From positions 1-64,000 of the forward strand of contig SCNS01000025.1 of assembly GCA_005503215.1 (NCBI GenBank): a DNA stretch of 64,000 nt, given 5' to 3'. A program made the position numbers and the translations under genes. Source of the stretch: Sphingomonadaceae bacterium 3R27C6. GTDB lineage: Bacteria > Pseudomonadota > Alphaproteobacteria > Sphingomonadales > Sphingomonadaceae. Shown here piece after piece: positions 283-60,176 of this stretch. How positions within the stretch are numbered: the first letter of the stretch is position 1; the number at the start of each line of letters is the position of its first letter. The notes beneath the pieces were generated by a model. It ran no database searches. It was not told where the DNA came from and saw nothing but the letters and a program-made list of their open reading frames with translations.

Positions 283-1032
283 TCATCGACGGTCCTTACC
301 GGAAAGCGGGACGAAGAGCGGATGCCGCCCGGCGCCGGTGGCTGGCGCAGCGGCCGTCGGACTATCCGGCAGACTGTTCGAGTCCGGGACGGCCGGCGCG
401 TGGTCTTCGACGACAGAGGCGTTATCGCCCCGCGCGGCAAAGAGTGTCGACCGCTGCCAGCCCGGCGCGGCCGAAGGCGGCGCGGCGGCGCGCGAAGCAA
501 TGCCGGATGCGCCAAGCTCGGGCGCGATCCGCGCGACATAGGCGCGCGTTTCGGCAGGCAGTCCGCGCCGTCCGGACGCAAAAGCGTCGGCGCGGCCCGG
601 TCCCGCATTATAGGCGGCGAGCATCAGCGGCACATCGCGGTAGCGATCCCACATCGCGCGCAGATAAGCGGCACCCGCAAGGATGTTCGAGCGCACATCG
701 AACGGGTCCGCGCCCAAGCCGTGGCGCGCCGACAACATCGCCCAGGTCGCGGGCATGATCTGCATGAGCCCCATCGCGCCGGCGTGCGAGACGGCGCGTG
801 CGTTGCCCCGGCTTTCGGCGTGCATGACGCGCCAGATCCAGCGTTCGGGGATACCGAAACGCTGCGACGCCTCGGCGACCGATGCCGCATAGGGATGGAC
901 ATCGGCGCGCACCGCCGGCGCGGCGATGGCAGCGGATGCGCCGCCGAAGGGCGCGCCGAGTGCGCAGCCGATCGCCGCGCAGCGCAGCGCGAGCGCAATG
1001 GCGGTGCAGGACGATCGCGGCCCGTATGCCAT
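283..1032 (-). CDS. Lytic transglycosylase (SLT domain) of the conjugation module
   Basis: A 249-aa exported peptidoglycan-cleaving enzyme that would open a local gap in the wall for the conjugation apparatus. The N-terminus is hydrophobic and ends in an Ala-rich signal-like stretch (about residues 10-38). The SLT fold follows: catalytic Glu in 'MHAESRGNA', then 'GAMGLMQIMPATW', 'NILAGAAYL' and 'LAAYNAGPG'. The C-terminal 70 residues are low complexity and rich in Ala and Pro. It starts 3 bp after the DUF736 gene upstream and is the last gene of a tightly packed minus-strand operon with traF. The family is VirB1/TrbN-like. The fold assignment is firm; the conjugation role comes from context. 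Confidence 0.9.
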   Translation of the reverse strand: MAYGPRSSCTAIALALRCAAIGCALGAPFGGASAAIAAPAVRADVHPYAASVAEASQRFGIPERWIWRVMHAESRGNARAVSHAGAMGLMQIMPATWAMLSARHGLGADPFDVRSNILAGAAYLRAMWDRYRDVPLMLAAYNAGPGRADAFASGRRGLPAETRAYVARIAPELGASGIASRAAAPPSAAPGWQRSTLFAARGDNASVVEDHAPAVPDSNSLPDSPTAAAPATGAGRHPLFVPLSGKDRR

Positions 1033-1373: not shown

Positions 1374-1943
1374 TCACTCCATTTCGCTACGGGGAAAAGC
1401 AAGATCGCGGCCCGAAGGGCGCCAGCGCAGCGGCGCGCCCGGGGCGTCGCGGGTCAGGATCGGGTGCGCCGTTCCGAGCAGGCCGCTGGTCGGAAGCGGC
1501 CCGAAATATCGTCCGTCGAGACTGTCCCGCGCCGCATTGATCAGGAAGATCTCGCGGGGCTGCACGATGCGGCAGCCGAGCCAGGCCGGCAGCGGCCGGC
1601 CGGCCCGGTCGCGCGCCAGCGCGCGGGCGACGGCCCGGCCGTCGACGGTCACGAAGACGCCCGAGCGACAGACCCGCGCGCCGGGGAGCGCAGCGACACG
1701 CTTGAGAAGCGGCACGCCGCGAGGCAGGTAATTGCGCCGCGCCATGTAATCGGCGAGATCAGTCGGCGGCGCGATCGCGACCCAATCGCCCACCACGGGC
1801 GCGGCGCCGGGATCGATGCGATAAAGGCCAACCGGCGCGCTGTGGCTCGCATTCCACAGCAGGCGCGGCGCCGGCGCGAAGCCGGCTGAAAGACCGAGCA
1901 GCGTCACGGCGGCAGCGACAATATGGAGGTAGCGGCGGTTCAT
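1374..1943 (-). CDS. traF: TraF-type S26 signal peptidase
   Basis: A 189-aa conjugative signal peptidase of family S26. TraF enzymes process and cyclise the pilin precursor at the inner membrane. One N-terminal membrane segment (about residues 5-22) is followed by the nucleophile region 'NASHSAPVGLYRI'. The general-base Lys is in 'LLKRVAALPGARV', and the C-terminal box is 'DSLDGRYFGPLP'. ATG 1943 overlaps the DUF2840 stop as ATGA, indicating translational coupling. The longer in-frame start at 1970 adds nine residues without family support. Its neighbours DUF2840 and the RdfS-like gene match the rdfS-traF order known from ICEs of the ICEMlSymR7A group. Confidence 0.92.
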   Translation of the reverse strand: MNRRYLHIVAAAVTLLGLSAGFAPAPRLLWNASHSAPVGLYRIDPGAAPVVGDWVAIAPPTDLADYMARRNYLPRGVPLLKRVAALPGARVCRSGVFVTVDGRAVARALARDRAGRPLPAWLGCRIVQPREIFLINAARDSLDGRYFGPLPTSGLLGTAHPILTRDAPGAPLRWRPSGRDLAFPRSEME

Positions 1944-2449
1944 GATTCGATCGCCCGGCGGCGTAGCCATGCCGCATGGCGCTCTGCGCTATAGGGACGA
2001 AAGGGCAGGCCGGCGGCGAGACGGTCGGCGACATGACGCCAGTGATCGGGCGACGCATCGCACGGATCGACCCCGGCGGCCTCGACCGCATCGACCGCTT
2101 CGAGCACCCGCGACACCTTCGGCCAGCTCTCGATGCTGAGCAGAATTTCGCCGCCGGGCCGGACGAACGGTAGCGCCGTATGGGGCTCGCCGACAGCGAC
2201 CGCGGTGACGATCTGGATACTCGAGTGGATGGTCCCGAAGTCGTTCGACGACCAGCGCAAATAGGCGAAGGTCGCTCCCGGACGAAACATGACGATGCGC
2301 TTGCGGCGGCTGACGATCCGCTCGGCGGCGACGCGGCCAAAGCGGATCCATTGCTCGGTGCGGCCTTCGATCCAGGTCAGTTCGACCTCGGTCAGCGGCA
2401 TGCGCGCCTCTGCCGTGCTCGCCGCCGCGATGCCGTCGCGCGGCATCAT
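1940..2449 (-). CDS. DUF2840 domain protein
   Basis: A 169-aa protein matching DUF2840, a family seen next to traF in alphaproteobacterial ICEs. Its function is unknown. Recognisable parts are 'TEVELTWIEGRTEQWIRFGR' near residue 20, the 'SRRKRIVMFRPGATFAYLRW' core and the tail 'RPYSAERHAAWLRRRAIES'. Several starts are possible: ATG 2449, which overlaps the upstream stop as ATGA, ATG 2446 and ATG 2401. The overlap favours 2449. The protein is probably cytosolic; no signal or membrane segment is visible. Overlaps on both sides show that it is translated with the RdfS-like and traF genes. Confidence 0.85.
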   Translation of the reverse strand: MMPRDGIAAASTAEARMPLTEVELTWIEGRTEQWIRFGRVAAERIVSRRKRIVMFRPGATFAYLRWSSNDFGTIHSSIQIVTAVAVGEPHTALPFVRPGGEILLSIESWPKVSRVLEAVDAVEAAGVDPCDASPDHWRHVADRLAAGLPFRPYSAERHAAWLRRRAIES

Positions 2450-2697
2450 CGGCGCACCGGCCGCGCCGGATGGACGGTGCCCTTGCCCGGATCGGAGGTC
2501 GAAGAGCGGCGACCGATCTCGGCCCAGGCGTCGAGATCCTCGATCCCATAGACGACGCGTCCGCCAAGCTTGCGATAGGCGGGCCCGGTCCCGTAGCAGC
2601 GATGCTTCTCGAGCGTCCGGGCCGACAGCCCGAGGTGCAGGGCAGCGTCGGGCGTTCTGAGATAGCGCGGGCCAAGGGCGGGCAAGGGGGGATTCAT
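2446..2697 (-). CDS. AlpA/RdfS-like excisionase (winged helix)
   Basis: An 83-aa DNA-binding protein with an AlpA/MerR-type helix-turn-helix: 'YLRTPDAALHLGLSARTLEK' (residues 12-31), then the wing 'GPAYRKLGGRVVYGIEDLDAW'. In ICEMlSymR7A the equivalent small protein RdfS is the recombination directionality factor. It drives excision and is co-expressed with traF. A strong AAGGAG lies 8 nt before ATG 2697. The stop overlaps DUF2840 as ATGA. The FseA-like activator lies 97 bp upstream on the same strand, so an activator-to-excisionase relay is likely. The fold is clear; the RdfS role is inferred from context. Confidence 0.85.
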   Translation of the reverse strand: MNPPLPALGPRYLRTPDAALHLGLSARTLEKHRCYGTGPAYRKLGGRVVYGIEDLDAWAEIGRRSSTSDPGKGTVHPARPVRR

Positions 2698-2794
2698 TCG
2701 CGTGCTCCTTCCAGCCGCCGGGCCGAAAAAGCCGGTGCGGCGGGTCGTGGAGCGTGGTGGCGCGAAGAGGAGCGGGAGCCGGAGCGGCTAAAGT

Positions 2795-3457
2795 TCAGGG
2801 CAATTTTTGTCGCCCCGCAGGACCGGCGAGCAGTGCCCGATAACCGCCCTGCATCAAGGCGCGTGCTTCCTCGATCAGCCGCTGCGTCCGCCTTCGCTCG
2901 GGCGAGGACTTCCATTCGGCGCCGCGGCCGACCGACAGGCGGGAGTAGATGATGAGGCGCGCGACATCGTGAGAGGTGACGCCGGCGCCGCCCAGTCCCT
3001 GCAGCAGATCGAGAATGGCGAGCATCATGCCGAGGCGGCGCGCCTGATAGGCGGTCGGCAAGAAACCGGCAGGCGGCGGGCCGGGCGCATCGCCGAGCCA
3101 TCGATCGAACCGCGCAGCCGCCTCGTGACGCAGGCCGACCAGCGAATCGCGCAGGACCAGGTTCGCAAGCGGGACGCCGGGCCCGTCGGTGCGTAGCCAC
3201 AGGCGGTGCCATGCCCGGTCGTCGGCGAAGACGAAGTGCCGGCCATCTTCCAGGCGGCGATCGGCGACGACAAGATGGGGCGGCGGAACCGCAAAGGCTT
3301 CAGCCGCCGGGCATCCCGGCGGCGCCACGTCGAGGATGTTCGTGTAACCGCAGATCGCCGCCGACCAGAGCGCAGGACTTTCGCGCGCCGAGCGGAACGG
3401 CGGGCATGGGAAAGCAAAGACCCCAGCGCCGGGCCATCGCCTCCCGCGCGGCACCAT
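2795..3457 (-). CDS. DUF2285 domain, downstream half of an FseA-like activator
   Basis: This frame carries a DUF2285 domain: 'ILDVAPPGCP', 'VFADDRAWHRLWLRTDG', 'RHEAAARFDRWLGDAPG' and 'YQARRLGMMLAILDLLQG', ending near 'SPERRRTQRLIEEARALM'. The first 30 or so residues drawn from 3457 do not look like a natural N-terminus. Protein-like sequence starts around 'ESPALWSAA' (about 3384). The matching N-terminal half lies upstream in another frame, and a +1 shift joins them. In ICEMlSymR7A the activator FseA is made from two overlapping reading frames by programmed +1 ribosomal frameshifting and ends in DUF2285. This pair has the same architecture and direction. A mutation or sequencing error is the alternative. 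Confidence 0.75.
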   Translation of the reverse strand: MVPRGRRWPGAGVFAFPCPPFRSARESPALWSAAICGYTNILDVAPPGCPAAEAFAVPPPHLVVADRRLEDGRHFVFADDRAWHRLWLRTDGPGVPLANLVLRDSLVGLRHEAAARFDRWLGDAPGPPPAGFLPTAYQARRLGMMLAILDLLQGLGGAGVTSHDVARLIIYSRLSVGRGAEWKSSPERRRTQRLIEEARALMQGGYRALLAGPAGRQKLP

Positions 3458-3605
3458 CGCCGCGGCGCCCGCCGGTCATAACGCAGTCATAGTCGCGGAC
3501 ATAAGCAGGATTGCGGCGCAGAAACTCCTGAGCGAAGCCCGGAAAATCGAGCGGCGCCCGCTGCGTCACCTGTAATCGGGTCGTGCCTGCCACCGCCACC
3601 TCCAT
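3300..3605 (-). CDS. DUF6499-like N-terminal half of the FseA-like activator
   Basis: A 101-aa frame whose first 60 residues match the short N-terminal domain normally fused to DUF2285: 'QRAPLDFPGFAQEFLRRNPAYVRDYD', quoted here in two parts as 'QRAPLDFPGFAQEF' and 'LRRNPAYVRDYD', then 'MARRWGLCFPMP'. After that the frame reads through unrelated residues to a stop at 3300. The DUF2285 part continues in the +1 frame. ATG 3605 was chosen because the family begins shortly before this motif; upstream in-frame residues are not conserved-looking. Alone, this product would lack DUF2285, as expected for the unshifted product of a frameshift-controlled activator gene. Confidence 0.7.
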   Translation of the reverse strand: MEVAVAGTTRLQVTQRAPLDFPGFAQEFLRRNPAYVRDYDCVMTGGRRGDGAAREAMARRWGLCFPMPAVPLGARKSCALVGGDLRLHEHPRRGAAGMPGG

Positions 3606-3681
3606 TGGGATGACGGCAGCATCGCGATCGGATGGGATGGGCCTATTCCCACATCGCGGAAGGCCGATCCCCAGAAATGGG

Positions 3682-3711
3682 TATCCCGCCCGGCTGCTGC
3701 CGGGCGGGATA
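3682..3711 (-). terminator. Strong hairpin after the second DUF736 gene
   Basis: A perfect 13-bp stem (TATCCCGCCCGGC against GCCGGGCGGGATA) closes a 4-nt loop. It lies 10 bp past the stop of the minus-strand DUF736 gene and upstream of the FseA-like gene. No clear T-run follows, so it may act as a terminator or as an insulator between the two transcripts. Confidence 0.6.
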
Positions 3712-3720
3712 CGGGGGCGC

Positions 3721-4038
3721 TCAATCGCCGCCGCGGCGGGCCTGGCGGTTCCAGACCAGATCATGTTCCTCGCCTTCGCCGGCGAAAAGCTGGGCGAAGA
3801 TGGGGGCGGCAAACGTCGGATCGTCGAGCTTGACCGACAGATAGGGGCGCTTGTCCTGCGTCTTCTTCTCCCAGGCGGCGCCGACTTCGGCCTCGCCGAT
3901 GAAGACGCGGTGGCTGGGGGCGTTGCCGCTCGGATTGTCTTCCGGAACGATGCGAACCGATTTCGCCTGCACCGAGAGAGTGACGATCTGTCCCCGATAT
4001 TCGCCGGAAACCTTCTTGAACGTGCCGATCCTGGCCAT
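3721..4038 (-). CDS. DUF736 family protein (copy 2)
   Basis: A 105-aa DUF736 protein beginning 'MARIGTFKKVSGEYRGQIVT', with 'VFIGEAEVGAAWEKKTQDKR' in the middle and 'YLSVKLDDPTFAAPIFAQLF' followed by 'DLVWNR' at the end. This is the canonical form of the family, closer to other ICE copies than the 1036-1368 gene. ATG 4038 has AAAGGA upstream at good spacing; in-frame codons up to 4092 lack family similarity. It is a single gene followed by the 3682-3711 hairpin and preceded by about 320 bp with no supported gene. Its molecular role is unknown. Confidence 0.9.
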   Translation of the reverse strand: MARIGTFKKVSGEYRGQIVTLSVQAKSVRIVPEDNPSGNAPSHRVFIGEAEVGAAWEKKTQDKRPYLSVKLDDPTFAAPIFAQLFAGEGEEHDLVWNRQARRGGD

Positions 4039-4360
4039 GATGCTTGTCCTTTCCTTGGGCTCGGGCCGCACCAGCGCGGCCTCGATGCGCATCGGCGGTC
4101 AGCAAGGGGCCGGTGCCGCAGCCATCAGGCCCGCAGCGCAGCGGAGGACGGACACGGGCCGTCTTTCTTGTCTCGCGAGGAACGGCGGCACGCCGGGGGA
4201 AGAAAGTCGGTCATGGCCGTTGCGGCGTTCCGGACCAGCGCAGCGACTTGCTGACAGATGGCGCATTCCGAGAGGCCGTGCTGGCGTGGCCAGCGACCGG
4301 AAAGCGCAGAATGGCCGGGCCGTCCTCGACGAAGAAACACCGGCGGGTCCGGATATCGCG
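4039..4360. other. Intergenic stretch, nothing recognised
   Basis: About 320 bp between the DUF736 start and the stop of the membrane protein gene. Several frames are open across it on both strands, as expected at this base composition. None shows a ribosome binding site together with protein-like sequence. It presumably holds the DUF736 promoter. Confidence 0.4.
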
Positions 4361-18595: not shown

Positions 18596-19519
18596 ATGCG
18601 GCGGGGTTCTATAAAACTTGATTCGAGGGGGCAGTTTGCGGGTCACGAAACCTTTCCGCTGCGCCTGTTATGGCTGAAAAAGGCATTTGATGCCGTCGGC
18701 GATGGGGTTGACGCGAGAACATTTCAAGAACAATCTGCTATTACACGCTTCGGGGTCGGGCGCAACATGGCGGCATCAATCCGCTATTGGGCGCTCGCCA
18801 GCGGCTATTTCCATGAGCAGGACCGTGTGATCGCACCCACTGCGCTGGGCTTGGCTGTCCTCGCCGATAATGGCCTCGATCCCTATCTCGAGCAGGCTGC
18901 GACTGTATGGCTCGCCCATTGGCATGTCGCGGCCACGCCGGAAATGACCACTACGGCCTATTATGCGTTCAATCTGTTGAGTGCGATCGAGTTCGACCCA
19001 GCCATATTACTTGAGGAAGTCTTCGCGCTCGTCGAAGACAATAGCTGGCGGGCAACGCGCGGGACGTTGAAGCGCGATATCGAGGTTTTCCTCCGCAGCT
19101 ACGTCCGTCGGGGCGATGCGCTCAACGAAGACGCCGCGGAGCCGCTTCTCGCTGAGCTTGCGATCATTCGCGAAGCGCGGTTAGGAGGCTGGTACGAGTT
19201 TGTCCGCGGTCCCAAGCCAAGCCTTCACGATGCCGTCTTTACTTATGCGCTCGGCGACTTTTGGAAACGCAGCGGCGGCGCGACGACGCTGACGGCCGAG
19301 CAGATATGTTATGCGCCGGGCTCTCCCGGCCGCGTGTTCAAGCTTGATGAGGACAGCGTGATCACCCGGCTGATGCGGTTGGACGACATCACCAACGGCG
19401 CCTGGCTCTGGGTCGATACTGCCGGCCTCCGCCAGATCCAGCGCACATCGCCCTTCGATCCGCTCAAGACACTGTCCCTAGCCTATCCGCAAGGCGCTGG
19501 ACTGGAGGCAGCGGCGTGA
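18596..19519 (+). CDS. sspB: SspB-like DUF4007 protein of DNA phosphorothioation
   Basis: A 307-aa DUF4007 protein. The opening motif 'GQFAGHETFPLRLLWLKKAF' is diagnostic. It is followed by 'VGRNMAASIRYWALASGYF', 'PTALGLAVLADNGLDPYLE' and 'TVWLAHWHVA'. In the Ssp system the DUF4007 protein SspB nicks DNA and works with the SspC ATPase and SspD to place sulfur on one strand. ATG 18596 has no strong ribosome site but begins close to the conserved motif. The stop overlaps the GTG start of the ATPase gene. The match to Ssp rather than Dnd rests on DUF4007 together with the absence of DndB- and DndE-like genes nearby. Confidence 0.88.
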   Translation: MRRGSIKLDSRGQFAGHETFPLRLLWLKKAFDAVGDGVDARTFQEQSAITRFGVGRNMAASIRYWALASGYFHEQDRVIAPTALGLAVLADNGLDPYLEQAATVWLAHWHVAATPEMTTTAYYAFNLLSAIEFDPAILLEEVFALVEDNSWRATRGTLKRDIEVFLRSYVRRGDALNEDAAEPLLAELAIIREARLGGWYEFVRGPKPSLHDAVFTYALGDFWKRSGGATTLTAEQICYAPGSPGRVFKLDEDSVITRLMRLDDITNGAWLWVDTAGLRQIQRTSPFDPLKTLSLAYPQGAGLEAAA

Positions 19520-22500
19520 CCAAATTGTCATCGATCGTTACTATCGATCGCCGCTTTGCCCGATCGGCTCGACTCGATGCCGATCTCAACGGTACGCCGC
19601 CGCTGATCGGCTATGTTATGCAGGCGAGCGTCGCCAAGGCTCTCAAGACGCTGGGCGACAGCCAGTGCGAAAGTTACCAGGGCGCGTTCACTTGGACCGG
19701 CCCCTATGGCGGCGGCAAATCGAGCGCGGCGCTTCTCCTCGCCAATCTCGTCGCAGGTTCTAAAGGCAATCGAAAAATTGCCGGCGATATCGCGGGCGAG
19801 GCGCTGACCCGACTCTATACCGAGGCATTTCCCGAGCCTGACGGCGGTTGGAAAGTGGTGGCGGTCACCGGCAGCCGGCAGCGGCTGCGCGATGCGATAA
19901 TCGAGGCCGCTACGATCGCGCTTGACTGGAGTTCGGCCGACGTCGCCAACCATGCAGCAAGCGACGACCGACTGATCGCCGCGTTGATTGCGGGTGGCAA
20001 ATCGGCATCGAGCGGAACGCTTCTGATCCTCGACGAGCTTGGCAAGCTACTTGAGTATGAAGCGCTGGAAGGCGGAGATGTCCACCTGCTTCAGGATCTT
20101 GCGGAGCATGCGACGCGTAGCAAGGGTCGGCTGGTCGTCATCGGCATCCTCCATCAATCGTTCGAACAATATGCCGCGCGCGCCGCGCGCGATGCGCGGC
20201 AGGAATGGGCGAAGGTCCAAGGACGCTTCCACGATATCGCCTTCCTGTCAGGCCCCGATGAAACGGTGGCACTGCTCGGTAAGGCGATTTCTGCCGAGCA
20301 TCCACGAAGTGCTGAAGGCGCAGCGCAGACAATCGCCGGCGAAGTCGCAAAGCGGCGGCCGACCGACGCCGGACTGCTCGCCAAGGCCCTAGCCGACACC
20401 TGGCCGCTCAACCCGGTGACCGCTCTGTTGCTGGGACCTGTATCGCGCGCGCGCTTCGCCCAGAACGAACGGAGCGTGTTTGGATTTCTCAGTTCGGCAG
20501 AACCATCTGGCTTCCAGGAGTTTCTCGAACATAGCGGCGATAAGGGCGCAACTTATGACCCCGCTTTGCTCTGGGACTATCTGGCGGCCAATTTCGGCAT
20601 GGCGCTCGCCGGCGGCAGCGACGGCGGCCGGTTCAGCCTTGCCTATGAGGCGATCGAACGCGCGGGCGCGAAAGGCGATGGCCTTCATGTCGAATTGACC
20701 AAAGCTGCTGCGGTCATCGAATTCTTCCGCAATGGATCTGGCGTCACGCTTTCTGACGAATTCCTGATCGCATCGGTGCCGCAAGCGAGCCCCAAGATCG
20801 TCAAAGCCGCAATCGCGGATTTGCTAGATTGGGCGGTATTGATCCGCCAGCCGCGGCTTGGCGGCTATGCACTGTTCGCGGGCAGCGATTTCGACCTCGA
20901 AGAAGCGATTGGCCGCGCCGTCGTGCCCGTCGACAATATTCAGCTCGAAGGCATTCCGAACCGGGTTGGCTTCGGCTTCGCGACCGCAAAGCGCCATTAT
21001 TTCCTCACCGGAGCCCTTCGAACGTTCGAAATCGCGCTGCAGGTGATTTCACCGGACGATTCGACCGAAAGCCTCGTGGCACGAATCGAAGCACGGACAC
21101 CGCGCGGCAGCGGCTTGCTGCTGCTCTTCCTCGCCGACGGTACATTGCCAAGGCAAGCCGTGGAGGCCAAAGCCAAGGCCGCAGCGAAGGCGCTCAAGGC
21201 CAGCGGCCGGATCGTTGCGCTCGGCAGCGCCAGCGAGAGCTTTGCGCTTCGCACCGCGGCGGCCGAGCTTATCGCGGTCGAGCGGGTCTTCCACGAGCAT
21301 CCGCAGCTCGAGGGCGACCGGATAGCGCGCCGCGAGATCGCCGCGCGCCAGTCGCGCTGCATCGACGAACTGCACCGTAAACTTGAAGCGGCACTCGAAG
21401 GTGCCAAATGGTATTTGGCCCCTGCGCCGGGCCGCGCGCACAGCGACCCGCTCGCGATCATTGCGAGCGCGCTTGCGGACGCAGGTTATTCGCAGGCTCC
21501 CATTCTCAAGAGCGAACTCCTCCAACGCGATAAGCCCTCACCGAACTCGATGGCGGCGCTTCGCGACCTCGCGCATGCGATGGTAAGCGCCGGCGAGCAC
21601 GAGCAGCTTGGCATGACCCAATATCCGGCAGAGCTCGGTCTCTATCTCACGGTCATCAAGCCGTTCGGCCTCCATCGCGAGATCCATCCCGGTCAATATG
21701 AGTTCAGCGATCCCGACGACAGCGCAGCGGGCCGGTCACTCCGGCCTGCCTGGGATGTCATCGACGAGGCAGGTGACGATCCACTCGATTGCATCTATGC
21801 GCGCTGGGCCACGGCCCCTTTCGGGATCAAGGCCGGGGTCATGCCGGCAATCGCGCTCGCCTATATGCTCGCGAAGCGCAACAGCGTCGCCATCTATATC
21901 GACGGCATCTATCAAACCCAGATCGATGATGTGGTCGTAGACAAGCTCCTCCAGAGGCCAGCGAGCTTCCGGATGCGCAAGATCGACCGCTCGGTCCGCG
22001 AGATGGCTTTTCTGAGCGGTCTCGCCAAGCTTATGGGCGTCGAAGAAACCGGCGCGTCGTTGCCGATCGCGGCCGCCCTGTTCCAGCGTTTCGAGGCTCT
22101 TTCGAGCTTCGCCAGGCGCACGCAGCGGATCGACAAGCAGGCCCGCGCAGTGCGCTCCGTTGTCCTCAAGGCGGACGACCCCGAGAAACTGCTCTTCGAT
22201 GACCTGCCCGCGACGCTCGGCGAGGCGCTCACGCCCGAGGCGGTGCATGCAGCCATCCTCGCCGCTGAAGAAAGCTATCCCGCCCTCCTCGCCGAGCTCC
22301 GGCTTGCCCTCGGTCGCGCTCTCGGCATCGACCCCGCAGACTTCGGCGGCATCGGCGAAAGAACGGCCGCGATCAGGGGGCTGACCAACGATTATAATTT
22401 CGATGCGTTCGCCGATCGCGCCGCGGCGATCGAACAGGGTAACGGCGATATCGAGAGCCTGGTCAGCGTTCTTCTGCACCGCCCTGCCCGCAACTGGTCC

Positions 22501-22824
22501 GATCGCGACCGCGAAGAAGCGCTGACCGAGATCGCGCGCTTTGGCCGTCGGTTCCGCGAACTCGAAGCATTGGCAGTCGTGCGCGACAGGCAATCGCACA
22601 CAGAGGCGCTGGCCCTGGTGGTCGGCCTCGATCCCAAGACGCCGCCGCTGATGCGCAGCTTCGTACTCAACGAACAGGAAAAGCAGGCGGCTGCCGGCAT
22701 GGCGGACCGGCTGGTTGCGACGCTGCGCGCCGATGACGGGGGCGGCAGGCTCCAACTCGCCGCGCTGGCACGCGCCGTCGCGATGCTCGCGGCGGACAGC
22801 GAAGAAGAGGCGGTAGCCGCATGA
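19516..22824 (+). CDS. sspC: SspC-like large P-loop ATPase
   Basis: A 1102-aa cytosolic ATPase. Walker A is 'TGPYGGGKSSAALLLANLV' near residue 62, and Walker B is 'SSGTLLILDELGKLLEYEA' near 160. A sensor-like 'VVIGILHQSFEQYAARAAR' follows. The remaining 800 residues have winged-helix-like and helical segments with no named domain that I can place. Length and position between DUF4007 and the PAPS-reductase-like gene fit SspC, the ATPase of the single-strand phosphorothioation complex. The start is GTG 19516, supported by GGAGG and by the GTGA overlap with sspB. The stop overlaps sspD as ATGA, so sspBCD is one coupled operon. Confidence 0.88.
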   Translation: MTKLSSIVTIDRRFARSARLDADLNGTPPLIGYVMQASVAKALKTLGDSQCESYQGAFTWTGPYGGGKSSAALLLANLVAGSKGNRKIAGDIAGEALTRLYTEAFPEPDGGWKVVAVTGSRQRLRDAIIEAATIALDWSSADVANHAASDDRLIAALIAGGKSASSGTLLILDELGKLLEYEALEGGDVHLLQDLAEHATRSKGRLVVIGILHQSFEQYAARAARDARQEWAKVQGRFHDIAFLSGPDETVALLGKAISAEHPRSAEGAAQTIAGEVAKRRPTDAGLLAKALADTWPLNPVTALLLGPVSRARFAQNERSVFGFLSSAEPSGFQEFLEHSGDKGATYDPALLWDYLAANFGMALAGGSDGGRFSLAYEAIERAGAKGDGLHVELTKAAAVIEFFRNGSGVTLSDEFLIASVPQASPKIVKAAIADLLDWAVLIRQPRLGGYALFAGSDFDLEEAIGRAVVPVDNIQLEGIPNRVGFGFATAKRHYFLTGALRTFEIALQVISPDDSTESLVARIEARTPRGSGLLLLFLADGTLPRQAVEAKAKAAAKALKASGRIVALGSASESFALRTAAAELIAVERVFHEHPQLEGDRIARREIAARQSRCIDELHRKLEAALEGAKWYLAPAPGRAHSDPLAIIASALADAGYSQAPILKSELLQRDKPSPNSMAALRDLAHAMVSAGEHEQLGMTQYPAELGLYLTVIKPFGLHREIHPGQYEFSDPDDSAAGRSLRPAWDVIDEAGDDPLDCIYARWATAPFGIKAGVMPAIALAYMLAKRNSVAIYIDGIYQTQIDDVVVDKLLQRPASFRMRKIDRSVREMAFLSGLAKLMGVEETGASLPIAAALFQRFEALSSFARRTQRIDKQARAVRSVVLKADDPEKLLFDDLPATLGEALTPEAVHAAILAAEESYPALLAELRLALGRALGIDPADFGGIGERTAAIRGLTNDYNFDAFADRAAAIEQGNGDIESLVSVLLHRPARNWSDRDREEALTEIARFGRRFRELEALAVVRDRQSHTEALALVVGLDPKTPPLMRSFVLNEQEKQAAAGMADRLVATLRADDGGGRLQLAALARAVAMLAADSEEEAVAA

Positions 22825-23660
22825 CAGGTGAGCGCCATATTCTCGGGCTTTCGGGCGGCCGCGACAGCGCCGCGCTCGCAGTTTATATGCGGCAACATCA
22901 TTCGGGTCTGCCGCTTGAATATTTCTTCACCGACACCGGCAAAGAACTCCCAGAAGTCTACAGCTTCCTCGACCGGCTCGAGGGGTTTCTCGGCAAGCCG
23001 ATCCAGCGACTTAATCCCGATCGCGATTTCGATTTCTGGCTCGACGAATATGGCAATTTCCTCCCCTCACCGCGCACGCGCTGGTGCACGCGGCAGCTCA
23101 AACTTCGCCCGCTCGAACGTTGGCTCAGAGCTGATCTCGAGGCAGGAACGACGGTTCATAGCTATGTTGCAATCCGCGCCGACGAACCGACCCGCGAGGG
23201 GTATCAGGCGACGCATCCCAATATGCGCGTGCATCTGCCGCTGCGCGAAGCCGGTATCGACCGTGCCGGGGTGATCGAGATTCTCGAGCAATCCGACGTC
23301 GGCGAACCTGCTTATTATCAGTGGCGGTCGCGTTCGGGTTGCACCTTCTGCTTTTTCCAACAAAAGATCGAGTGGGTCCGGCTCGCCGAAAATCATCCCG
23401 ATCGCTTTGCCGAGGCGGTCGATTATGAAAAGACCGCCCTCAAGGATGGCTCACCCTTCACCTGGAGCCAGGGCGAAAGCCTGACGGAGTTGATCGAGCC
23501 CGCACGCGTCGCAGCAATCAAAGCCGATTATGAAAAGCGGCGCGAGCGCCTGCGCCGCAATCGCCGGGTCAATCCTCTGTCGGCCAACAGCGCCGAGACG
23601 ATCGACGATGTTTACGGGGTCGACGAGGGGTCGAGCAGCTGCGTGATCTGCCACAAATAG
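22821..23660 (+). CDS. sspD: SspD-like PAPS-reductase-family ATP pyrophosphatase
   Basis: A 279-aa PP-loop enzyme that activates the DNA phosphate with ATP for sulfur insertion. The PP-loop is 'ILGLSGGRDSAALAVYM' at residues 7-23, and 'YFFTDTGKELPEVYSFLDRL' continues the fold. Cys residues that could hold an Fe-S cluster or Zn are in 'RTRWCTRQLK', 'SRSGCTFCFFQQ' and the C-terminal 'SSSCVICHK'. This resembles DndC and SspD, which carry Cys clusters. ATG 22821 overlaps sspC by 4 bp. Its stop lies 8 bp from the stop of the convergent kinase gene. Confidence 0.9.
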   Translation: MTGERHILGLSGGRDSAALAVYMRQHHSGLPLEYFFTDTGKELPEVYSFLDRLEGFLGKPIQRLNPDRDFDFWLDEYGNFLPSPRTRWCTRQLKLRPLERWLRADLEAGTTVHSYVAIRADEPTREGYQATHPNMRVHLPLREAGIDRAGVIEILEQSDVGEPAYYQWRSRSGCTFCFFQQKIEWVRLAENHPDRFAEAVDYEKTALKDGSPFTWSQGESLTELIEPARVAAIKADYEKRRERLRRNRRVNPLSANSAETIDDVYGVDEGSSSCVICHK

Positions 23661-23668
23661 GGCAGCAT

Positions 23669-24544
23669 CTATCCCACGATCGCCGCTTCTATTTCATCGG
23701 CGAAAGCGCGCCCGTCAGCGGGACGTATCGCGGTGCGATGATGAAGAGCCCGATAGATCGGATCGAAAAGCGCCTCCGGCCCTGACCAGTCGTCGCGAGA
23801 CAGTATGCCGGTCGGATGACTTCGATTGACGACGAACCAGAAGACCGATGCGAGCTGGAAGACGTCCGAGGCTGCATCGATCCGGTCATCGCGCCCGATG
23901 CTTCGGTTGTTCGCCTCGGGCGACATCCAGAAACGTGGCCCGACGATCTGCCAGTCGGGCGTCACGCGCTCTTCAGGCGGCAGTCCCAGCACATCGCAAA
24001 GACCATAATCGCTGAGCACCCATCTATCGCCGACGACAAGGATATTGTCCGGCTTGATGTCTCGGTGGATGGCTTTGGTGTGAAGTTCGCCCAACCCTTG
24101 TGCAAGACCGCGAAACTGCGCTTGAAAAACCTCGCTCGGGACATCGGCCCGCCGCACGAGGTCCGTCAGCGCCTCGGTCGCAAGGACCATGATGATGAAG
24201 GGGACGCTCTTGGTGGTCGATGTGTTTGACCCGCGCTTCCTGAATTCGCCATCAACAGCACCTGCATCCTTGTAAACGATCAGATGCTCATGCTTGAGAT
24301 CGGCCAATAGCTCGCGTTCCCGCTCGAACCGCGCGCGCCGGTCCACCCGAAGGTCGAGTAGGAATTTTACGGCATATTCAACGCCATCGGCAAGATCGGT
24401 GCATCGATGGACAACCCCGTTGCCACCCGCCGCTATGCGGTCCCCGACCTCATACGCATGTCCCGCCTGCGTGCGAAGTTCGTCTGGGATGACGATCGTC
24501 TCGCGTGGCTGAGTGTCGCCCCTGCCGGCGAAAAGCACGGCCAT
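23669..24544 (-). CDS. Hanks-type Ser/Thr protein kinase in the defence locus
   Basis: A 291-aa soluble kinase without a membrane segment or extracellular sensor. All key motifs are present: Gly-rich loop 'IAAGGNGVVHRC', Lys in 'VEYAVKFLL', Glu in the next helix, catalytic loop 'HRDIKPDNILVV', metal-binding 'LSDYGLCDVLG' (DYG for DFG) and 'MSPEANNRS'. It should be active. ATG 24544 is 1 bp past the stop of the DUF262 gene, so the two form an operon; longer in-frame starts inside that gene are less natural. Kinases occur in other anti-phage systems (PglW of BREX type 2, Stk2), so a signalling role here is reasonable inference. Confidence 0.85.
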   Translation of the reverse strand: MAVLFAGRGDTQPRETIVIPDELRTQAGHAYEVGDRIAAGGNGVVHRCTDLADGVEYAVKFLLDLRVDRRARFERERELLADLKHEHLIVYKDAGAVDGEFRKRGSNTSTTKSVPFIIMVLATEALTDLVRRADVPSEVFQAQFRGLAQGLGELHTKAIHRDIKPDNILVVGDRWVLSDYGLCDVLGLPPEERVTPDWQIVGPRFWMSPEANNRSIGRDDRIDAASDVFQLASVFWFVVNRSHPTGILSRDDWSGPEALFDPIYRALHHRTAIRPADGRAFADEIEAAIVG

Positions 24545-24545
24545 G

Positions 24546-25790
24546 TCACGCCGCCCCGCCGCAGCCGGCGATCCGCCAGCAAGCATTGGAAAGCTGGAAT
24601 ACCGCCGCGTCGGCTGGCCAGTCGAGAACACGCTCCTTGCTCTGGTGATCATGCAGAGGCTCTCCGCATGCTACACAATCGTCGAACAACCGGCCACGGG
24701 CGCTGAAGTCGAGCTGCTGCGCCATCGCCTCGAAGCGTTCGCGAACCGGCTCTTCAGGCCGCCGCTGCCGATAGGTGCCCGACAATATGTCCATGAGGAA
24801 GTTCTTGCGCCAGGACCGGCTGGCGATCGTGTTGGCCTGCGACACGCATTTGATCGCATATTCGCTCAGAATATCGACCTCGGATTCGGGTGCGATATTT
24901 TCATCGAGCAGGCGCAGATCGCCGCGGAGCGGTTCCAGATCCTGATCTAGCAGAGCGTGGCCGGCCCGGTGAAATTCATGAACCGAAAGGAACAGCGAGT
25001 AGAAATCGGATTTCTGCTTGAACCGCGTCCGCCCCAGCGGGAAGCGATCGGGCGCGAAGATGGTGTGAAAGTCATCGAGGACGGCCATGAACTCGCGCCG
25101 AGTGGCTGCCTCGCTCTCCGCGTCCCATTCGGCGTATCGGGCGTAGAAATAATCGAGGTCGCCCTTCTTGTCCTGCGGGCCCTCGAGCATGCCGGCGAGG
25201 ACCTCCGAGACGAACTCGACATCGCCCATCCGCCGCCGCTGGCCGACCGTGAACACGCGCGAATCGTCAAGATATTCGTCGAGCGAAAGATCGGTCGCGA
25301 GATCGAGAAACCGGCCCGGGAAATCGGCCCTGCGTAATTCCTGCTTGTTGAGCGGGAGGGAGTATTTGTTCACGCGCGAGTAGACCTCGCGCACCTCCTC
25401 TTCGGTGAAGCCGATCGCCTCATTATAGTCGATCTTGTACTGTAAAATCTTGTTTCGCACTTCGGCGGGGAGTTCGGAGAATTTCTTTCCGGCAAAGGGC
25501 CCGGAATAGGGCTCGTCGAGCGCGAACTCGTCGCGCAGAAAAGCCAGAATTGCCGAAATGCGCTGCTGTCCGTCGATGACCTGCCGGTAGGTCTGCTCGT
25601 TGCGGATTTCATTCCAAAGGAACATCTTGGGCATCGGCACCTGACGCAGGATCGTATCGATGAGCATGATGCGCGCAGCCGGGTTCCAAACCTCCTTACG
25701 CTGGAACGAGGGCCGCAATTCCAGTCGACCGTTCGTGCTCCAGTCACGCAGGTCCGAGATGGGATGCGGGCTGCTGTTCCAAGTCCCCAC
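24546..25790 (-). CDS. DUF262 (ParB-like nucleotidase) protein
   Basis: A 414-aa protein with an N-terminal DUF262 domain: 'LELRPSFQRKEVWNPAARIM', 'IDTILRQVPMPKMFLW' and the signature 'VIDGQQRISAILAFL' near residue 75. The helical middle is unassigned. The C-terminus has a possible zinc site 'DDCVACGEPLHDHQ' but no full HNH nuclease motif. DUF262 proteins include the GmrSD and SspE restriction factors, where NTP hydrolysis controls DNA cleavage. The start is GTG 25790 with AGGA 8 nt upstream. It is followed at 1 bp by the kinase gene. Whether it is an SspE-type effector without DUF1524 or a regulator is open. Confidence 0.82.
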   Translation of the reverse strand: MGTWNSSPHPISDLRDWSTNGRLELRPSFQRKEVWNPAARIMLIDTILRQVPMPKMFLWNEIRNEQTYRQVIDGQQRISAILAFLRDEFALDEPYSGPFAGKKFSELPAEVRNKILQYKIDYNEAIGFTEEEVREVYSRVNKYSLPLNKQELRRADFPGRFLDLATDLSLDEYLDDSRVFTVGQRRRMGDVEFVSEVLAGMLEGPQDKKGDLDYFYARYAEWDAESEAATRREFMAVLDDFHTIFAPDRFPLGRTRFKQKSDFYSLFLSVHEFHRAGHALLDQDLEPLRGDLRLLDENIAPESEVDILSEYAIKCVSQANTIASRSWRKNFLMDILSGTYRQRRPEEPVRERFEAMAQQLDFSARGRLFDDCVACGEPLHDHQSKERVLDWPADAAVFQLSNACWRIAGCGGAA

Positions 25791-25956
25791 TATATATTCC
25801 TCAACATTGAAAGATTATTCCGCTGGGCGTGTGCGGTAACGCGCACCCGGACGGAAGGCGAGACATCGCGAAGGCGCGCACTCCGCCGCGGCGGGTAGCG
25901 CATCCGTTTCGAGGTTCCAGCAGGCATGTTCGGGTGCGGCTCACGTCTGAAAGGGA

Positions 25957-26409
25957 TCAAAGCATTCCGACGAGCTCATCGCTGAGCCCGAACATCTCGT
26001 CATCGCAGCTCTGCTCCAGAATTTCGATGAGGCGCGGCATCCCCGCAAAGGCGAGACCATTGGCGATCCGCATCATCCGCCGGGGATCCTGGACGACGTC
26101 GGTCTCGCCGGTCTCGCTGATTGCGATCAGCCGCAGGGCATCGGCGCGCCACTCGGGCGAGACAACCGCCGAGCCCTCAATGGCCTTGTAGGTTTCCCGG
26201 GCTTCGAGATCGGCGGGTTTGAGCTTGAGCTTCACCGCGACGCAGATGGCGAGGAACCAGAAATCGACCATGCGCGGAAAGGGCTTGCGGTCGAGATCAG
26301 CAACGCTCGACGCGCCTGTGCTCTGCGAATAGCGCTGAAAATACTCGCGAAACTCGACCGGCGCATTCACTTCGACGCCGGCGAAGGAGGTGTTGATATC
26401 GTCGCTCAT
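25957..26409 (-). CDS. Unknown 150-aa protein of the Ssp restriction operon
   Basis: A 150-aa soluble protein I cannot assign. It starts 'MSDDINTSFAGVEVNAPVEF' and then 'REYFQRYSQSTGA'. A mostly helical region includes 'FPRMVDFWFLAICVAVKLKL', and it ends 'ILEQSCDDEMFGLSDELVGM'. ATG 26409 overlaps the stop of the Rad50-like ATPase as ATGA, which ties it tightly to that protein. Small proteins paired with SMC/DndD-like ATPases can be subunits such as the middle components of ABC three-component systems. That comparison is inference. About 165 bp with promoter-like AT-rich sequence separate it from the DUF262 gene. Confidence 0.7.
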   Translation of the reverse strand: MSDDINTSFAGVEVNAPVEFREYFQRYSQSTGASSVADLDRKPFPRMVDFWFLAICVAVKLKLKPADLEARETYKAIEGSAVVSPEWRADALRLIAISETGETDVVQDPRRMMRIANGLAFAGMPRLIEILEQSCDDEMFGLSDELVGML

Positions 26410-28538
26410 GCCATAACCTCCCGGGACGCGGCGGCGGACTCAACTTCCATTTTTCGCGCGCAGGTGTGGCAGCTTTCGTCATAGGAGCAGTCGCACCGGA
26501 CAACCTCGATCCTCTCCGAGGGCGGCGCATGGAGCAGCATGCGCGGATAATGGGCCGGATTGGTGAGCGTGATGACCTTGCCAGCATGATTCGCGAGCAG
26601 CGTCTCGGTGCCGGCGATTTCGGAGCGGGTGAGGAAGAGGATAAGCTGCGAGCTGTAACGGGCCGCAACCCGAACCACCGAGCTTTTTACGTAGCCGCTC
26701 ATCATTCCGAGTGGCGTATCGATAATATTCGGGGCTTCGACGCCACTTACCCGGGTCAGCGCAAGGATGAACGCAAGCGTAAGCGCGCGACGCGATGCGC
26801 CGTTCAGATCACGATCGGGACTGAGCAGCCGGTCGTCGGGGCCAAAAACTAGAATGTCGAAGTCTTGGCTGATTTCTGCACGGCGGATGATCGCACCCTG
26901 CTCGGCGTCGGCGCCAATCATTTCAAGAAATATCTCGTTCATCAACGTGCTGACGCGGCCAAGCTCGTCGGACTTCAGCCGGTCGAGCGCCCGTTCGAAA
27001 ACCCTAAGCACATCCTGCCCGGCAAGTAGCTCGGCGGCGAGCTGCTGTCCTTTCGTTTCGGCTTTCAAGAAGTCGTCGCGCTCCCTGACCGCCGCCGCAC
27101 GCTCCGCGCGCGCCGCCTCAATCCGGAACGCTGCGCGCGCCGCTTCGTCGCCGTAGTCGTCGGCATGCTTTCGGGCGATTTTCTTTTGTTCGCGTAGCCG
27201 CTGGATGTCGACGTCAGGCACCAGCGCGATCTTCGCTTCAATCTGCGCTTCTTCCGCCGCGAAATCCTTGATCGCCTGAGCCGCCGCGTTCCGGCGCTTC
27301 ATGAGATCAGCATAAAGGTCGCGCCAGCTATCGGCTTCGCTAGGCTGCATCAAGTCGCGAGCGCCATAATAAAGTTCGGTGATCGTCTTCTGGACCGCGT
27401 CGGCGGCGCGGCTCGCCTCGATCATGTCGTTGATATGCTTGTGCCGCCGGGCGCCGTCGGTATCCGTCACATCGAGAGTCTCGCCGCAGATACAGAGCTT
27501 CTGCCCCAGGCATTCGTTCAGCACCGGGATTGTCTGATTAGGGATGCGGCCCTTGGCCTTTAGTGCTTCGAGCTTGCCGGTGGCGACGGCCACGGCACCG
27601 GCAAGCAGCTGCTTGGCGAGAAGCTTGGATTTAAGCAATTCGCCCTGCTCCTTGGCCAGGGCTAGTTCGGCTGCGTCGCCCCGCTTGCGGTTTTCCTTCG
27701 TCCGCTTGAGCTGCGAGGCAAGCTCGGATCGATCGCCCTGCGCAAGCGCTTGTTCGATCTGCTTGGTGAGCAGCTCATATTGCTCTTCGCTTCGCGCCCG
27801 GTTCGCGGTCGCCTCGGCCTGCTTGGGTTCGAGCGTAGCGAGTTCGAGATCGAGCGCCTCAATCCGCGATGAGGCTTCGCGGGCGAGGCTTCCCGCATCA
27901 GATTCGCGGACGCGCTTGTTGACGTCAGCCGCCGCCTGCTTGACGTGACGTTGTGCACTCTCAACGATCGACAGTCCGAGCAGTGCCTTGATCGCATTCT
28001 CAACGCGTTGCCGCTTCACCGTCACGCTGTCGGCGTCAATGAAACTCAGCGCGCGATCGCCGTCAGTGAAGAATACCTCGCGCAGCTCAGGCGGCAGTTC
28101 GGTGCGAACGCGGTTTTCGCCATATTCTTGTGGGTCGCTTCCTTTCGCGGCCAGGTCATACAGACGGAGCGTTGGCTCTCCCCTCCGCCAGCCGGTCGCG
28201 CTCACAGTCTCAGTCACCGTTCGAACAACGCGGTAGCGTCGCAAAGTAGATACGACACGGTTGCTGCGCAGAGCAGGAACGGTCTCGAAATCCACTTCGA
28301 CCACCGTGCGGACGGTGCCACTCTCGGTGTCGATCGGATGGAGGCGATAAGTTTTGGCATCGCCGGGCAATGCTTCGTCGCCGTAAAGCGCCCATTGCAG
28401 CGCAGTCAGCATCGTCGTCTTGCCGGTTTCGTTCTCTGCCCGAATGACCGTCAGATTTTGATCGGGATCGGTTGAGAATTCGATCTCGAGATCCCGAAGC
28501 AGGCGGAAATTCTCGAATTTCGCTCGCAAGAGCTTCAT
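26406..28538 (-). CDS. Rad50/DndD-like SMC ATPase of the defence locus
   Basis: A 710-aa ABC-type ATPase with long central coiled coils. It opens 'MKLLRAKFENFRLLRDLEIE'. Walker A is 'AENETGKTTMLTALQWALYG'. A hinge-like CxC element 'QKLCICGETLDVTD' near residue 350 sits between two coiled-coil arms. The signature and Walker B region are in 'SRRALTLAFILALTRVSG' and 'NIIDTPLGMMSG'. The C-terminus has a Cys cluster 'CDCSYDESCHTCARKM'. It resembles DndD and Rad50, which bind DNA ends or couple ATP use to nuclease action. It overlaps genes on both sides by 4 bp, forming one operon with the PLD-helicase. Confidence 0.85.
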   Translation of the reverse strand: MKLLRAKFENFRLLRDLEIEFSTDPDQNLTVIRAENETGKTTMLTALQWALYGDEALPGDAKTYRLHPIDTESGTVRTVVEVDFETVPALRSNRVVSTLRRYRVVRTVTETVSATGWRRGEPTLRLYDLAAKGSDPQEYGENRVRTELPPELREVFFTDGDRALSFIDADSVTVKRQRVENAIKALLGLSIVESAQRHVKQAAADVNKRVRESDAGSLAREASSRIEALDLELATLEPKQAEATANRARSEEQYELLTKQIEQALAQGDRSELASQLKRTKENRKRGDAAELALAKEQGELLKSKLLAKQLLAGAVAVATGKLEALKAKGRIPNQTIPVLNECLGQKLCICGETLDVTDTDGARRHKHINDMIEASRAADAVQKTITELYYGARDLMQPSEADSWRDLYADLMKRRNAAAQAIKDFAAEEAQIEAKIALVPDVDIQRLREQKKIARKHADDYGDEAARAAFRIEAARAERAAAVRERDDFLKAETKGQQLAAELLAGQDVLRVFERALDRLKSDELGRVSTLMNEIFLEMIGADAEQGAIIRRAEISQDFDILVFGPDDRLLSPDRDLNGASRRALTLAFILALTRVSGVEAPNIIDTPLGMMSGYVKSSVVRVAARYSSQLILFLTRSEIAGTETLLANHAGKVITLTNPAHYPRMLLHAPPSERIEVVRCDCSYDESCHTCARKMEVESAAASREVMA

Positions 28539-28756
28539 TGGAACTGCTCCGCGAGCTTCGCAGCGAGATCGACTCCGAGAGTGTTGATTTGGGCAGCGAT
28601 GTCCTGCTTGACATTGCGGGCTGCAAATCGGTGCTGGCGCTCGATATTGACAATTTCAGCGACGACTTCGCACACATCATCCGCGTAGGATGGATAGCGT
28701 GCTTCCGTCTTGCGCGCTTCTTCTAATATGATCTCGACGACCCGCTGCGTGTCCAT
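28535..28756 (-). CDS. Unknown 73-aa helical protein of the defence operon
   Basis: A 73-aa protein, helical throughout and without hydrophobic segments: 'MDTQRVVEIILEEARKTEAR', then 'YADDVCEVVAEIVNIERQHR', ending 'GVDLAAKLAEQFQ'. No family is recognised. ATG 28756 follows the PLD-helicase stop by 15 bp with GGAGG-like sequence between. The stop overlaps the SMC ATPase start as ATGA. The strict coupling on the ATPase side suggests it is a subunit or chaperone of that protein. Confidence 0.72.
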   Translation of the reverse strand: MDTQRVVEIILEEARKTEARYPSYADDVCEVVAEIVNIERQHRFAARNVKQDIAAQINTLGVDLAAKLAEQFQ

Positions 28757-28771
28757 CCGCCCCCTCCTTCT

Positions 28772-31012: not shown

Positions 31013-31157
31013 TCCACGACAGGACGAGCGCCGCAAGCTTAACCTTTGGATGCAGGCTATGAGCAAGCAAGTTGTATAACGTCAGCTTAAGGGCTCCGAT
31101 CGGCTCGTCTTGCTTGGCCGACATTAGGCGAAACCGACCGCATCCGTATCATAACAT

Positions 31158-41968: not shown

Positions 41969-42031
41969 GACTATTCTCACCCTGTAAGTCCGCTCGCCCG
42001 ATGGCAAGCTATGTTGCAGTCAAATTTGCCG

Positions 42032-51184: not shown

Positions 51185-51574
51185 GCAAGGTCTCCGCAGC
51201 GGACCGGAGGCAGGGCCACTCCCGCCTCCTTCGATCCGCTCGCAAGATTTCATGCCTTCCTCTCGCTCTATTTCCGGCGCCGCGCGGCAGCGCCCGACGA
51301 CCGGAATATAGATGCAGATCTGGGGCCAATTTTCCGGGGCCCGCGCCTTTCCCGTTTCCGGCCAATCGATTAGGACCGGGAGGCGATCGCCGTCGCGCAG
51401 CAGGGGCCAGGGCAAAAGCCCGCCTCGCCGAGGGCCGGGACCAGTCGCATAATGTCCCATCTGTCGTCCGTGCCGGAGAGGAACCGGGACCGGCGACCCA
51501 GGGAGCGGCTCGCGGGATCGACGGGTTGGGAACGTGCCGGCGACCGGACGGTCACAGTGAAGCATTTTTGTTTG
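51185..51574. other. Intergenic stretch between DUF2958 and luxR
   Basis: About 390 bp separating divergent transcripts. The luxR gene may begin inside it (ATG 51452 or GTG 51557 are in frame). No other gene is supported. Promoters for both sides should lie here; I did not find a clear 18-bp tra/lux-box dyad by eye. Confidence 0.35.
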
Positions 51575-53452: not shown

Positions 53453-53598
53453 TCGTCCGGATGACACCCGCGTGACGACGAGCGACAGGCTCAACTATCA
53501 AGAGCTTCTGGAATCGCGCGGATCATCCTCATATCTGGGGATACGCGCAGTCCACGGAAAATGATTTGATTCCCGGCACCAACAGCCGAGGAATCATC

Positions 53599-57539: not shown

Positions 57540-57634
57540 TTAATTCACTGCTCCACTAAGGCGGTCGACCAACTGGCGTCATCGCTCCCCCACAGGCCGT
57601 GTGCCCAAGCATCCGGTCACAACCCAGGGGGAGT

Positions 57635-60166: not shown

Positions 60167-60176
60167 GGAGGGCGGC

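Follow-up and report, generated by a model that had tools for sequence, protein, structure and literature searches.

The frameshift in fseA was reportedly first described by Ramsay and others in PNAS in 2015. In ICEMlSymR7A of Mesorhizobium (R7A), FseA is encoded by two open reading frames (msi172–msi171), and the available portions of the published accounts describe +1 frameshifting between them and an FseA box upstream of rdfS (PMC10359603, PMC5882170), the box being reported as two inverted hexamers 15–16 bp apart (PMC10359603). The available text of the same report counts 4,709 homologues, about 61% of which are split, has the W-G-L motif at the shift encoded by a ribosome-binding-site-like UGGGGG, and names Yersinia RovC as an activator of a type VI secretion system, with no frameshift mentioned for RovC in that text (PMC10359603). 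Split genes of this kind, how widely they occur and their joining by a +1 shift are already published as FseA. What is specific to the locus described here is its precise site, the weak Shine–Dalgarno (SD)-like element of its clade, a compact quorum-sensing/fseA/rdfS arrangement and a likely plasmid setting.

We analysed a 64,000-nucleotide stretch, here called the window, with which the 74,442-base contig C17 of a sphingomonad genome begins. Two overlapping open reading frames on its minus strand form, with high probability in our judgement, one fseA-type gene in which ribosomes would slip at UUU_C, which would be controlled by a LuxR/LuxI pair and whose product would activate the adjoining rdfS-like, DUF2840 and traF genes. 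The features concerned are the following.

283–1032, minus strand: SLT-type lytic transglycosylase gene, part of the transfer block (family search)
1374–1970, minus strand: TraF-like S26 signal peptidase gene (family search)
1940–2449, minus strand: DUF2840 gene (family search)
2446–2697, minus strand: RdfS-like HTH gene (P0001; HTH_17, E = 1.2 × 10−7; phmmer match to RdfS, PDB 8dgl)
2781–2816, minus strand: candidate FseA operator, dyad GGGGCGACA-N18-AGCCGCTCC, spanning the fseA 3′ end, upstream of rdfS
2795–3605, minus strand: fseA-like gene (P0002), for which a +1 shift would give a single 269-aa protein
2795–3457, minus strand: +1-frame open reading frame with the middle region and DUF2285 (PF10074, E = 2.3 × 10−23; domain about 2828–3148)
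3300–3605, minus strand: frame-0 open reading frame with DUF6499 (PF20109, E = 1.1 × 10−16), from ATG 3605 to the stop at 3302–3300
3410–3413, minus strand: putative shift site UUU_C, within UGG GGU CUU UGC UUU CCC AUG, placed by conservation among relatives
3667–3684, minus strand: lux-type box ATACCCATTTCTGGGGAT, its centre 70 bp upstream of ATG 3605
3721–4092, minus strand: DUF736 gene, directly upstream of fseA as on plasmid pMC4 (family search)
51452–52306, plus strand: LuxR/TraR-type autoinducer-binding regulator (PF03472, E = 6.5 × 10−32)
53525–53542, plus strand: second, 3-mismatch copy of the lux-type box, its centre about 66 bp upstream of the luxI start codon
53599–54225, plus strand: LuxI/TraI-type acyl-homoserine-lactone synthase (PF00765, E = 5.6 × 10−19)

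The locus is like FseA of R7A in having DUF6499 and DUF2285 domains in two open reading frames, a +1 site near W-G-L and an rdfS-type gene, here the putative target. Unlike in R7A, where fseA follows traI2 in another operon, the window gene lies directly before rdfS and is preceded by DUF736 rather than traI2; the SD-like UGGGGG reads UGGGGU, and the element is probably a plasmid. The initial annotation had proposed that DUF6499-like and DUF2285 halves of an FseA-type protein lie in frames overlapping at 3300–3457, and the family searches agree: both domains are recognized, the +1 site falls after W-G-L, and passage from frame 0 into the second open reading frame requires a +1 shift. Its skip of a single base thus stands, and the position it gave, 3375–3400, has to be moved 10–35 nt upstream in the gene sense, to 3413–3410. 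The N-terminal half carries the AWEFLRRN-like motif of DUF6499 as FAQEFLRRN, and an alternative frame-0 start, GTG 3593 with GGAGG at 3603–3599, can be read from the sequence. A profile of the joined protein, built from P0002 and 44 relatives (42 of them natural single-frame forms), matched RovC (PDB 6xz5; E = 1.8 × 10−22, profile positions 5–240 of 245) and, marginally, the FseA antiactivator QseM (7uqt; E = 0.07); phmmer with the joined protein alone found neither at E 1.

Both halves of the gene are constrained, each in its own frame. In pairwise comparisons of the window with its relatives L006 and L007, dN is lower than dS throughout, with dN/dS of 0.33–0.55 for the N-terminal half (only moderately below 1, with few changes) and 0.19–0.36 for the C-terminal half. 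Per pair, the C-terminal half shows 13–19 synonymous and 11–14 non-synonymous codon changes when read in the +1 frame, and 2–4 synonymous and 23–28 non-synonymous changes when read in frame 0. The frame-0 tail past the slip is 36 aa long in the window, meets an early stop in L007 and has a median length of 16 codons across 165 loci; it looks unconstrained.

To place the split in a wider context, we gathered 239 loci from the window's own genome and from its family, order, class and phylum; these were drawn from among the matches listed and are not exhaustive, and 120 places were fetched beyond those delivered with the searches. Locus classes were assigned with HMMs built from the collected loci. 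Three of the 239 loci (L056, L058 and L059) had no DUF6499 match and were dropped, 237 DUF6499 matches reduced to 228 unique ones, and six had no DUF2285 match. Among the 222 unique loci sampled, 171 are +1, 49 are single-frame, two are +2 (third frame) and none resumes in the same frame behind a stop; of the two +2 loci, L069 has TTT_C plus further disruption and L215 is open in frame 0 beyond the site. Uninterrupted frames in close relatives had been named in the initial annotation as the finding that would count against it: all 14 rows of the window's clade are split, and 6 of the 49 rows of a wider clade around it are single-frame. In a FastTree tree with many open forks and an arbitrary root, from which the two +2 loci and the short row L066 were left out, the split or single label changes at least 13 times over 219 rows, with at least 8 changes forced by well-supported branches.

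The shift site varies little among these loci. UUU_C (3413–3410) sits just past the W-G-L codons, of which TGG is at 3425–3423. Of the 171 +1 loci, 168 have the W-G landmark. In 165 of those 168, TTT is the fourth codon past TGG, invariably with a pyrimidine as the next base (157 C, 8 T). Two of the three +1 loci that lack the landmark have TTT_C at the site, which brings the total with TTT_Y at this codon to 167 of 171; in L053 TTT_C is displaced downstream by one codon and in L207 by two, and L041 (TGT_C) and L110 (AGT_C), 2 of the 171 split loci, are without TTT_Y altogether. When the sequences are limited to less than 60% identity, TTT occupies the site in 89 of 92 split loci; TTT accounts for 176 of the 584 Phe codons at other positions in these genes (30%). 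A one-base skip leaves the protein in register with single-frame relatives, as judged by the distance between W-G-L and D-P. UUU_C alone is insufficient as a signal, because the window open reading frame has a second in-frame UUU_C at F21 and TTT_C also occupies the site in 3 of 41 single-frame relatives. A slip on the next codon, CCC_A, would give the same window protein; we passed it over, preferring UUU_C, because TTT_Y is nearly fixed across relatives and the following codon varies (CCC in 71 and CGC in 70 of 168). The slippery heptamer that the initial annotation had expected was not found as a conserved element among these loci; the conserved signal is the tetranucleotide UUU_Y, that is, UUU plus a pyrimidine. 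Separately, L110 (G1278:C1, about 906773), in which the slip codon is AGT rather than TTT, is a possible natural slip-site mutant.

A split gene can also arise by accident. A one-base indel might have broken an FseA gene in this lineage and left the halves as remnants, a reading with which the existence of single-frame homologues is consistent (49 of 222, including the six in the wider clade), and a sequencing or assembly error at 3410–3413 might be suspected in a draft genome of 53 contigs at a site that adjoins a short TTTCCC run. However, the split is kept in the close relatives L006 and L007 (94–95% protein identity) and in the titled records L256–L259, and it recurs in independently sequenced genomes and plasmids of several genera. 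Of the 67 loci in titled records (named genomes, metagenome bins and plasmids), 64 are +1, all with TTT_Y at the site (58 C, 6 T), and the other three have no detectable DUF2285, figures that show presence rather than frequency because the search patterns for 63 of the 67 contained WGL[SCA]FP. Split loci are found throughout the tree, and decay would be expected to scatter over both shifted frames and stops, producing −1 shifts and in-frame stops as well; the classes observed do not scatter in this way, which places the split beyond chance. We therefore regard a pseudogene as very improbable and an error as scarcely credible. Judged by these comparisons, the fseA split is real and conserved, rather than a sequencing error or a recent mutation, and it is very likely to be used.

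The conserved halves might instead be made as two separate proteins, either DUF6499 and DUF2285 products in trans or a QseM-like antiactivator that consists of DUF2285 only. The window's +1 open reading frame has its own ATG at 3457, 80 of the 165 split loci have a +1-frame ATG or GTG before the slip, accompanied in 8 of them by an SD-like motif, and the antiactivator QseM is described as a lone DUF2285 protein in the available part of the FseA report (PMC10359603). Yet the remaining 85 of the 165 loci have no such ATG or GTG (TTG was left out of this count), an independent second open reading frame would give no reason for TTT_Y to be fixed at a single codon of the first, and in single-frame homologues these domains are joined with an unchanged W-G-L to D-P spacing. 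All four PF10074 matches in the genome pair with a nearby PF20109 match and are thus of the DUF6499-bearing type, leaving no QseM candidate at that sensitivity, at which a diverged QseM could be missed; within the window, a search for a second DUF2285 with a profile built for this analysis gave nothing but a weak match (E = 0.001) to the RdfS-like open reading frame. We consider two separate proteins improbable and favour a single fseA-type gene joined by a +1 slip.

Codon preferences around the site point to further elements in many members of the family. Among non-redundant split loci, GGG encodes the Gly of W-G in 56 of 89, against an expectation of 14% from the same genes; UUR encodes the Leu in 45 of 85 (expectation 12%), and an Arg directly before UUU is encoded by CGA in 31 of 34 (10% of Arg codons elsewhere); CGA in this position could be a slow codon acting in the E site. 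GGG and a following U go together (U in 39 of 56 loci with GGG versus 6 of 33 without), which suggests selection for a longer anti-Shine–Dalgarno duplex, GGGGGU. Duplex energies in split loci average −7.84 kcal/mol versus −5.92 kcal/mol for recoded sequence (P = 3 × 10−10), and for the 33 split sites that lack GGG the duplex is, if anything, weaker than in recoded sequence (−5.31 versus −5.97). The excess in 17 single-frame loci is not significant (−6.64 versus −6.05, P = 0.11), nor is the direct comparison of GGG frequency between split and single-frame loci (56 of 89 versus 7 of 17, P = 0.11). RF2 (prfB) shifts at CUU_U before a stop codon, with a 3-nt SD spacing. FseA relatives are like RF2 in the +1 shift and, for the most part, in an SD-like G run upstream; unlike RF2, the GGG type has 6 nt between the G run and UUU, and in the window the putative shift is at UUU_C, there is no stop and the SD-like element is weak.

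The weakness of this element extends across the window's relatives. With SD-strong defined as a duplex energy of −8 or below, 103 of 122 split sites outside the 49-row clade are SD-strong versus 15 of 42 inside it, and in the 14-row window clade the element is weak in 12 and strong in 2. The window site itself, with UGGGGU instead of UGGGGG, has a duplex energy of −5.9; the published UGGGGG feature fits the majority of members and not the window's gene. Within the 49-row clade, UUU is followed by CCC, CCT or TCC in all 27 SD-weak split sites and by CCC (8) or CGC (7) in the 15 SD-strong sites, a pattern to which no statistical test was applied because the members are related. Downstream RNA structure was rejected as a shared stimulator: in 60 sampled loci of the 165 split loci there was no enrichment, with a mean z of −0.22 versus −0.17 and −0.10 in control stretches, and no structure was found downstream of the window site (z = 0.44) or, at about −0.4, in L006 and L007. 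One tentative reading, which we think possible but hold with less than even confidence, is that this clade frameshifts without the SD-like stimulator that most relatives have and relies on UUU_Y and a C-rich codon, in a series that would run from stimulated to bare to no slippage, with some members of the wider clade now single-frame. FseA overexpression is bacteriostatic in R7A, according to the available part of the report (PMC10359603), and by analogy a low unassisted slippage rate may therefore be sufficient. The window's genome also has a split copy (L003, contig C20) with an SD-strong site, TGG GGG TTG GTC TTT_C.

Directly downstream of fseA, as the initial annotation had stated, is an RdfS-like gene, which matches RdfS (PDB 8dgl) over residues 9–73 (phmmer, E = 9.6 × 10−12); the term excisionase applied to it is apt as a description of this homology and not of a role here. 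It is the first of a set of same-strand genes with overlapping ends, followed by the DUF2840 and S26 peptidase genes (a putative operon), and the order 3′ of fseA is HTH (RdfS-like), DUF2840, S26 TraF-type peptidase, DUF736 and lytic transglycosylase. A profile grown from the window gene finds an RdfS-like gene no further than 1.4 kb downstream of 118 of 171 split and of 32 of 49 single-frame loci. In the window clade, 13 of the 14 loci have one, and the contig of the fourteenth ends first.

The candidate operator between the two genes, GGGGCGACA-N18-AGCCGCTCC, occurs once in the window, the next best match having three mismatches, and its core is present without mismatch in 28 of 64 related loci from titled records, a descriptive count since the motif was derived from the same clade. 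In distant loci both arms change together, for example to GGGGTGACA/TGTCACTCC and GGGGTGGGG/CCCCATCCC. A first scan for dyads with 6-bp arms and 15–16 bp spacing, for which the rdfS start codons were rough guesses, found 6 of 6 pairs matched in 24, versus 10 of 151 for shuffled sequence, a modest excess; in a 9-bp scan, 44 of 151 reached 8 or 9 matched pairs, versus 8 of 151 after shuffling. This general 9-bp scan picked GCAGGGCGG/CGGCCCTGC as best in L006 and L007, not the 2781–2816 dyad, and a frequent-word count in the operator search gave nothing clear. In layout, the dyad is like the FseA box as described (PMC10359603).

The lux-type box before fseA would link the gene to the quorum-sensing pair in the distal part of the window, in which the LuxI-type gene is also matched by NCBIfam TraI-type models, below their cut-offs. 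At up to three mismatches, the copy before luxI is the sole other match to the box in the window (0.01 expected by chance). On pMC4 the fseA box is unchanged, and a copy with three mismatches again precedes luxI. Of 17 related loci inspected, 13 have the box upstream of fseA at this threshold, and it was not found there in L250, L252, L271 and L275. In R7A, one tra-box is reported 69 bp upstream of traI1 and another 67 bp upstream of the traI2-msi172-msi171 operon (PMC5882170), similar to the 70 bp before fseA here. Together, the candidate operator and the box shared with luxI would recreate the circuit of R7A in a form in which fseA adjoins its putative target. A perfect GC-rich hairpin, GTATCCCGCCCGGC-AGCA-GCCGGGCGGGATAC, at 3681–3712 between DUF736 and fseA overlaps the lux-type box by four bases and is perhaps a terminator or attenuator.

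The initial annotation had assigned the locus to an ICE; a conjugative plasmid is the more likely setting, given that no integrase was found on C17 and that the closest syntenic record is a circular plasmid. The integrase family PF00589 has 13 matches in the genome and none on C17, which is an incomplete contig, and the genome's single match to the RPA family (PF10134) is on another contig. There is no tRNA within the window, and the C17 open reading frames that were searched (the last 10 kb lying outside) include no transfer genes beyond the fseA–rdfS–traF block. The closest syntenic record, pMC4 (NZ_CP076395.1), is a complete 404-kb circular conjugative plasmid of Sphingopyxis indica with trb and MobF annotated. 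It is like the window in carrying DUF736, the DUF6499/DUF2285 split (site TGG GGC CTC TGC TTT_C), HTH, DUF2840, S26 peptidase and SLT genes in the same order; it differs in the sequence of the +1 half, which has about 52% protein identity. A LuxR–LuxI/ParB/toprim/HEPN block is common to both (37% of a 20-kb query at 81% identity), and pMC4 carries its own annotated site-specific integrase. Records from Blastomonas and Novosphingobium (H2 and H3) that have the split gene are circular plasmids, and genes of the RdfS type have been reported from plasmids and ICEs alike (PMC11963761).

Several other features of this element and genome deserve record. At 18596–31066 there is a phosphorothioation-type anti-phage defence island with SspB, SspC and SspD homologues (18596–23660), a protein-kinase gene and GmrSD/NsnA-like, PbeC/DndD-like and PbeA-like genes. 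A protein encoded at 41045–42007 combines nucleotidyltransferase (Polbeta) and HEPN domains, and similar DNA is present on pMC4 and other plasmids. Three long open reading frames at 57599–63807 resemble, by order and size only, the TonB receptor, prolyl oligopeptidase and asparagine-synthase genes of pMC4, where the counterparts adjoin a lasso-peptide gene. Elsewhere in the genome (L001, contig C4, 54201–54953), a single-frame FseA-type gene is about 500 bp from an RPA-family replication gene.

In the mechanism that we propose for the single fseA-type gene, ribosomes would translate the DUF6499 half in frame 0 and, at UUU_C (3413–3410) with tRNA-Phe in the P site, a minority would slip +1 and re-pair on UUC, continuing into the DUF2285 half to make the 269-aa activator. 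Ribosomes that do not slip would stop 36 codons on and release a short DUF6499 protein. The LuxR/LuxI pair on the same contig probably turns on fseA in response to AHL through the lux-type box at 3667–3684, and the joined FseA probably binds the dyad at 2781–2816 and activates the rdfS-like, DUF2840 and traF transfer genes just downstream. The initial annotation had seen in this arrangement a conserved translational brake on transfer in sphingomonads; conservation of the split is borne out, and the brake itself is the published R7A model, which we infer to apply here.

This independent sample supports the view that a programmed +1 frameshift in a master regulator of conjugation has persisted in a broad span of bacteria, and it narrows the shared signal to UUU plus a pyrimidine, with upstream help being optional. 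In practice, annotation presents genes of this kind as a pair or as defective, and the transfer regulators of many elements are overlooked as a result. The element described here offers a complete circuit that can be tested, comprising AHL, lux box, split fseA, operator, rdfS and traF, on what is probably a conjugative plasmid.
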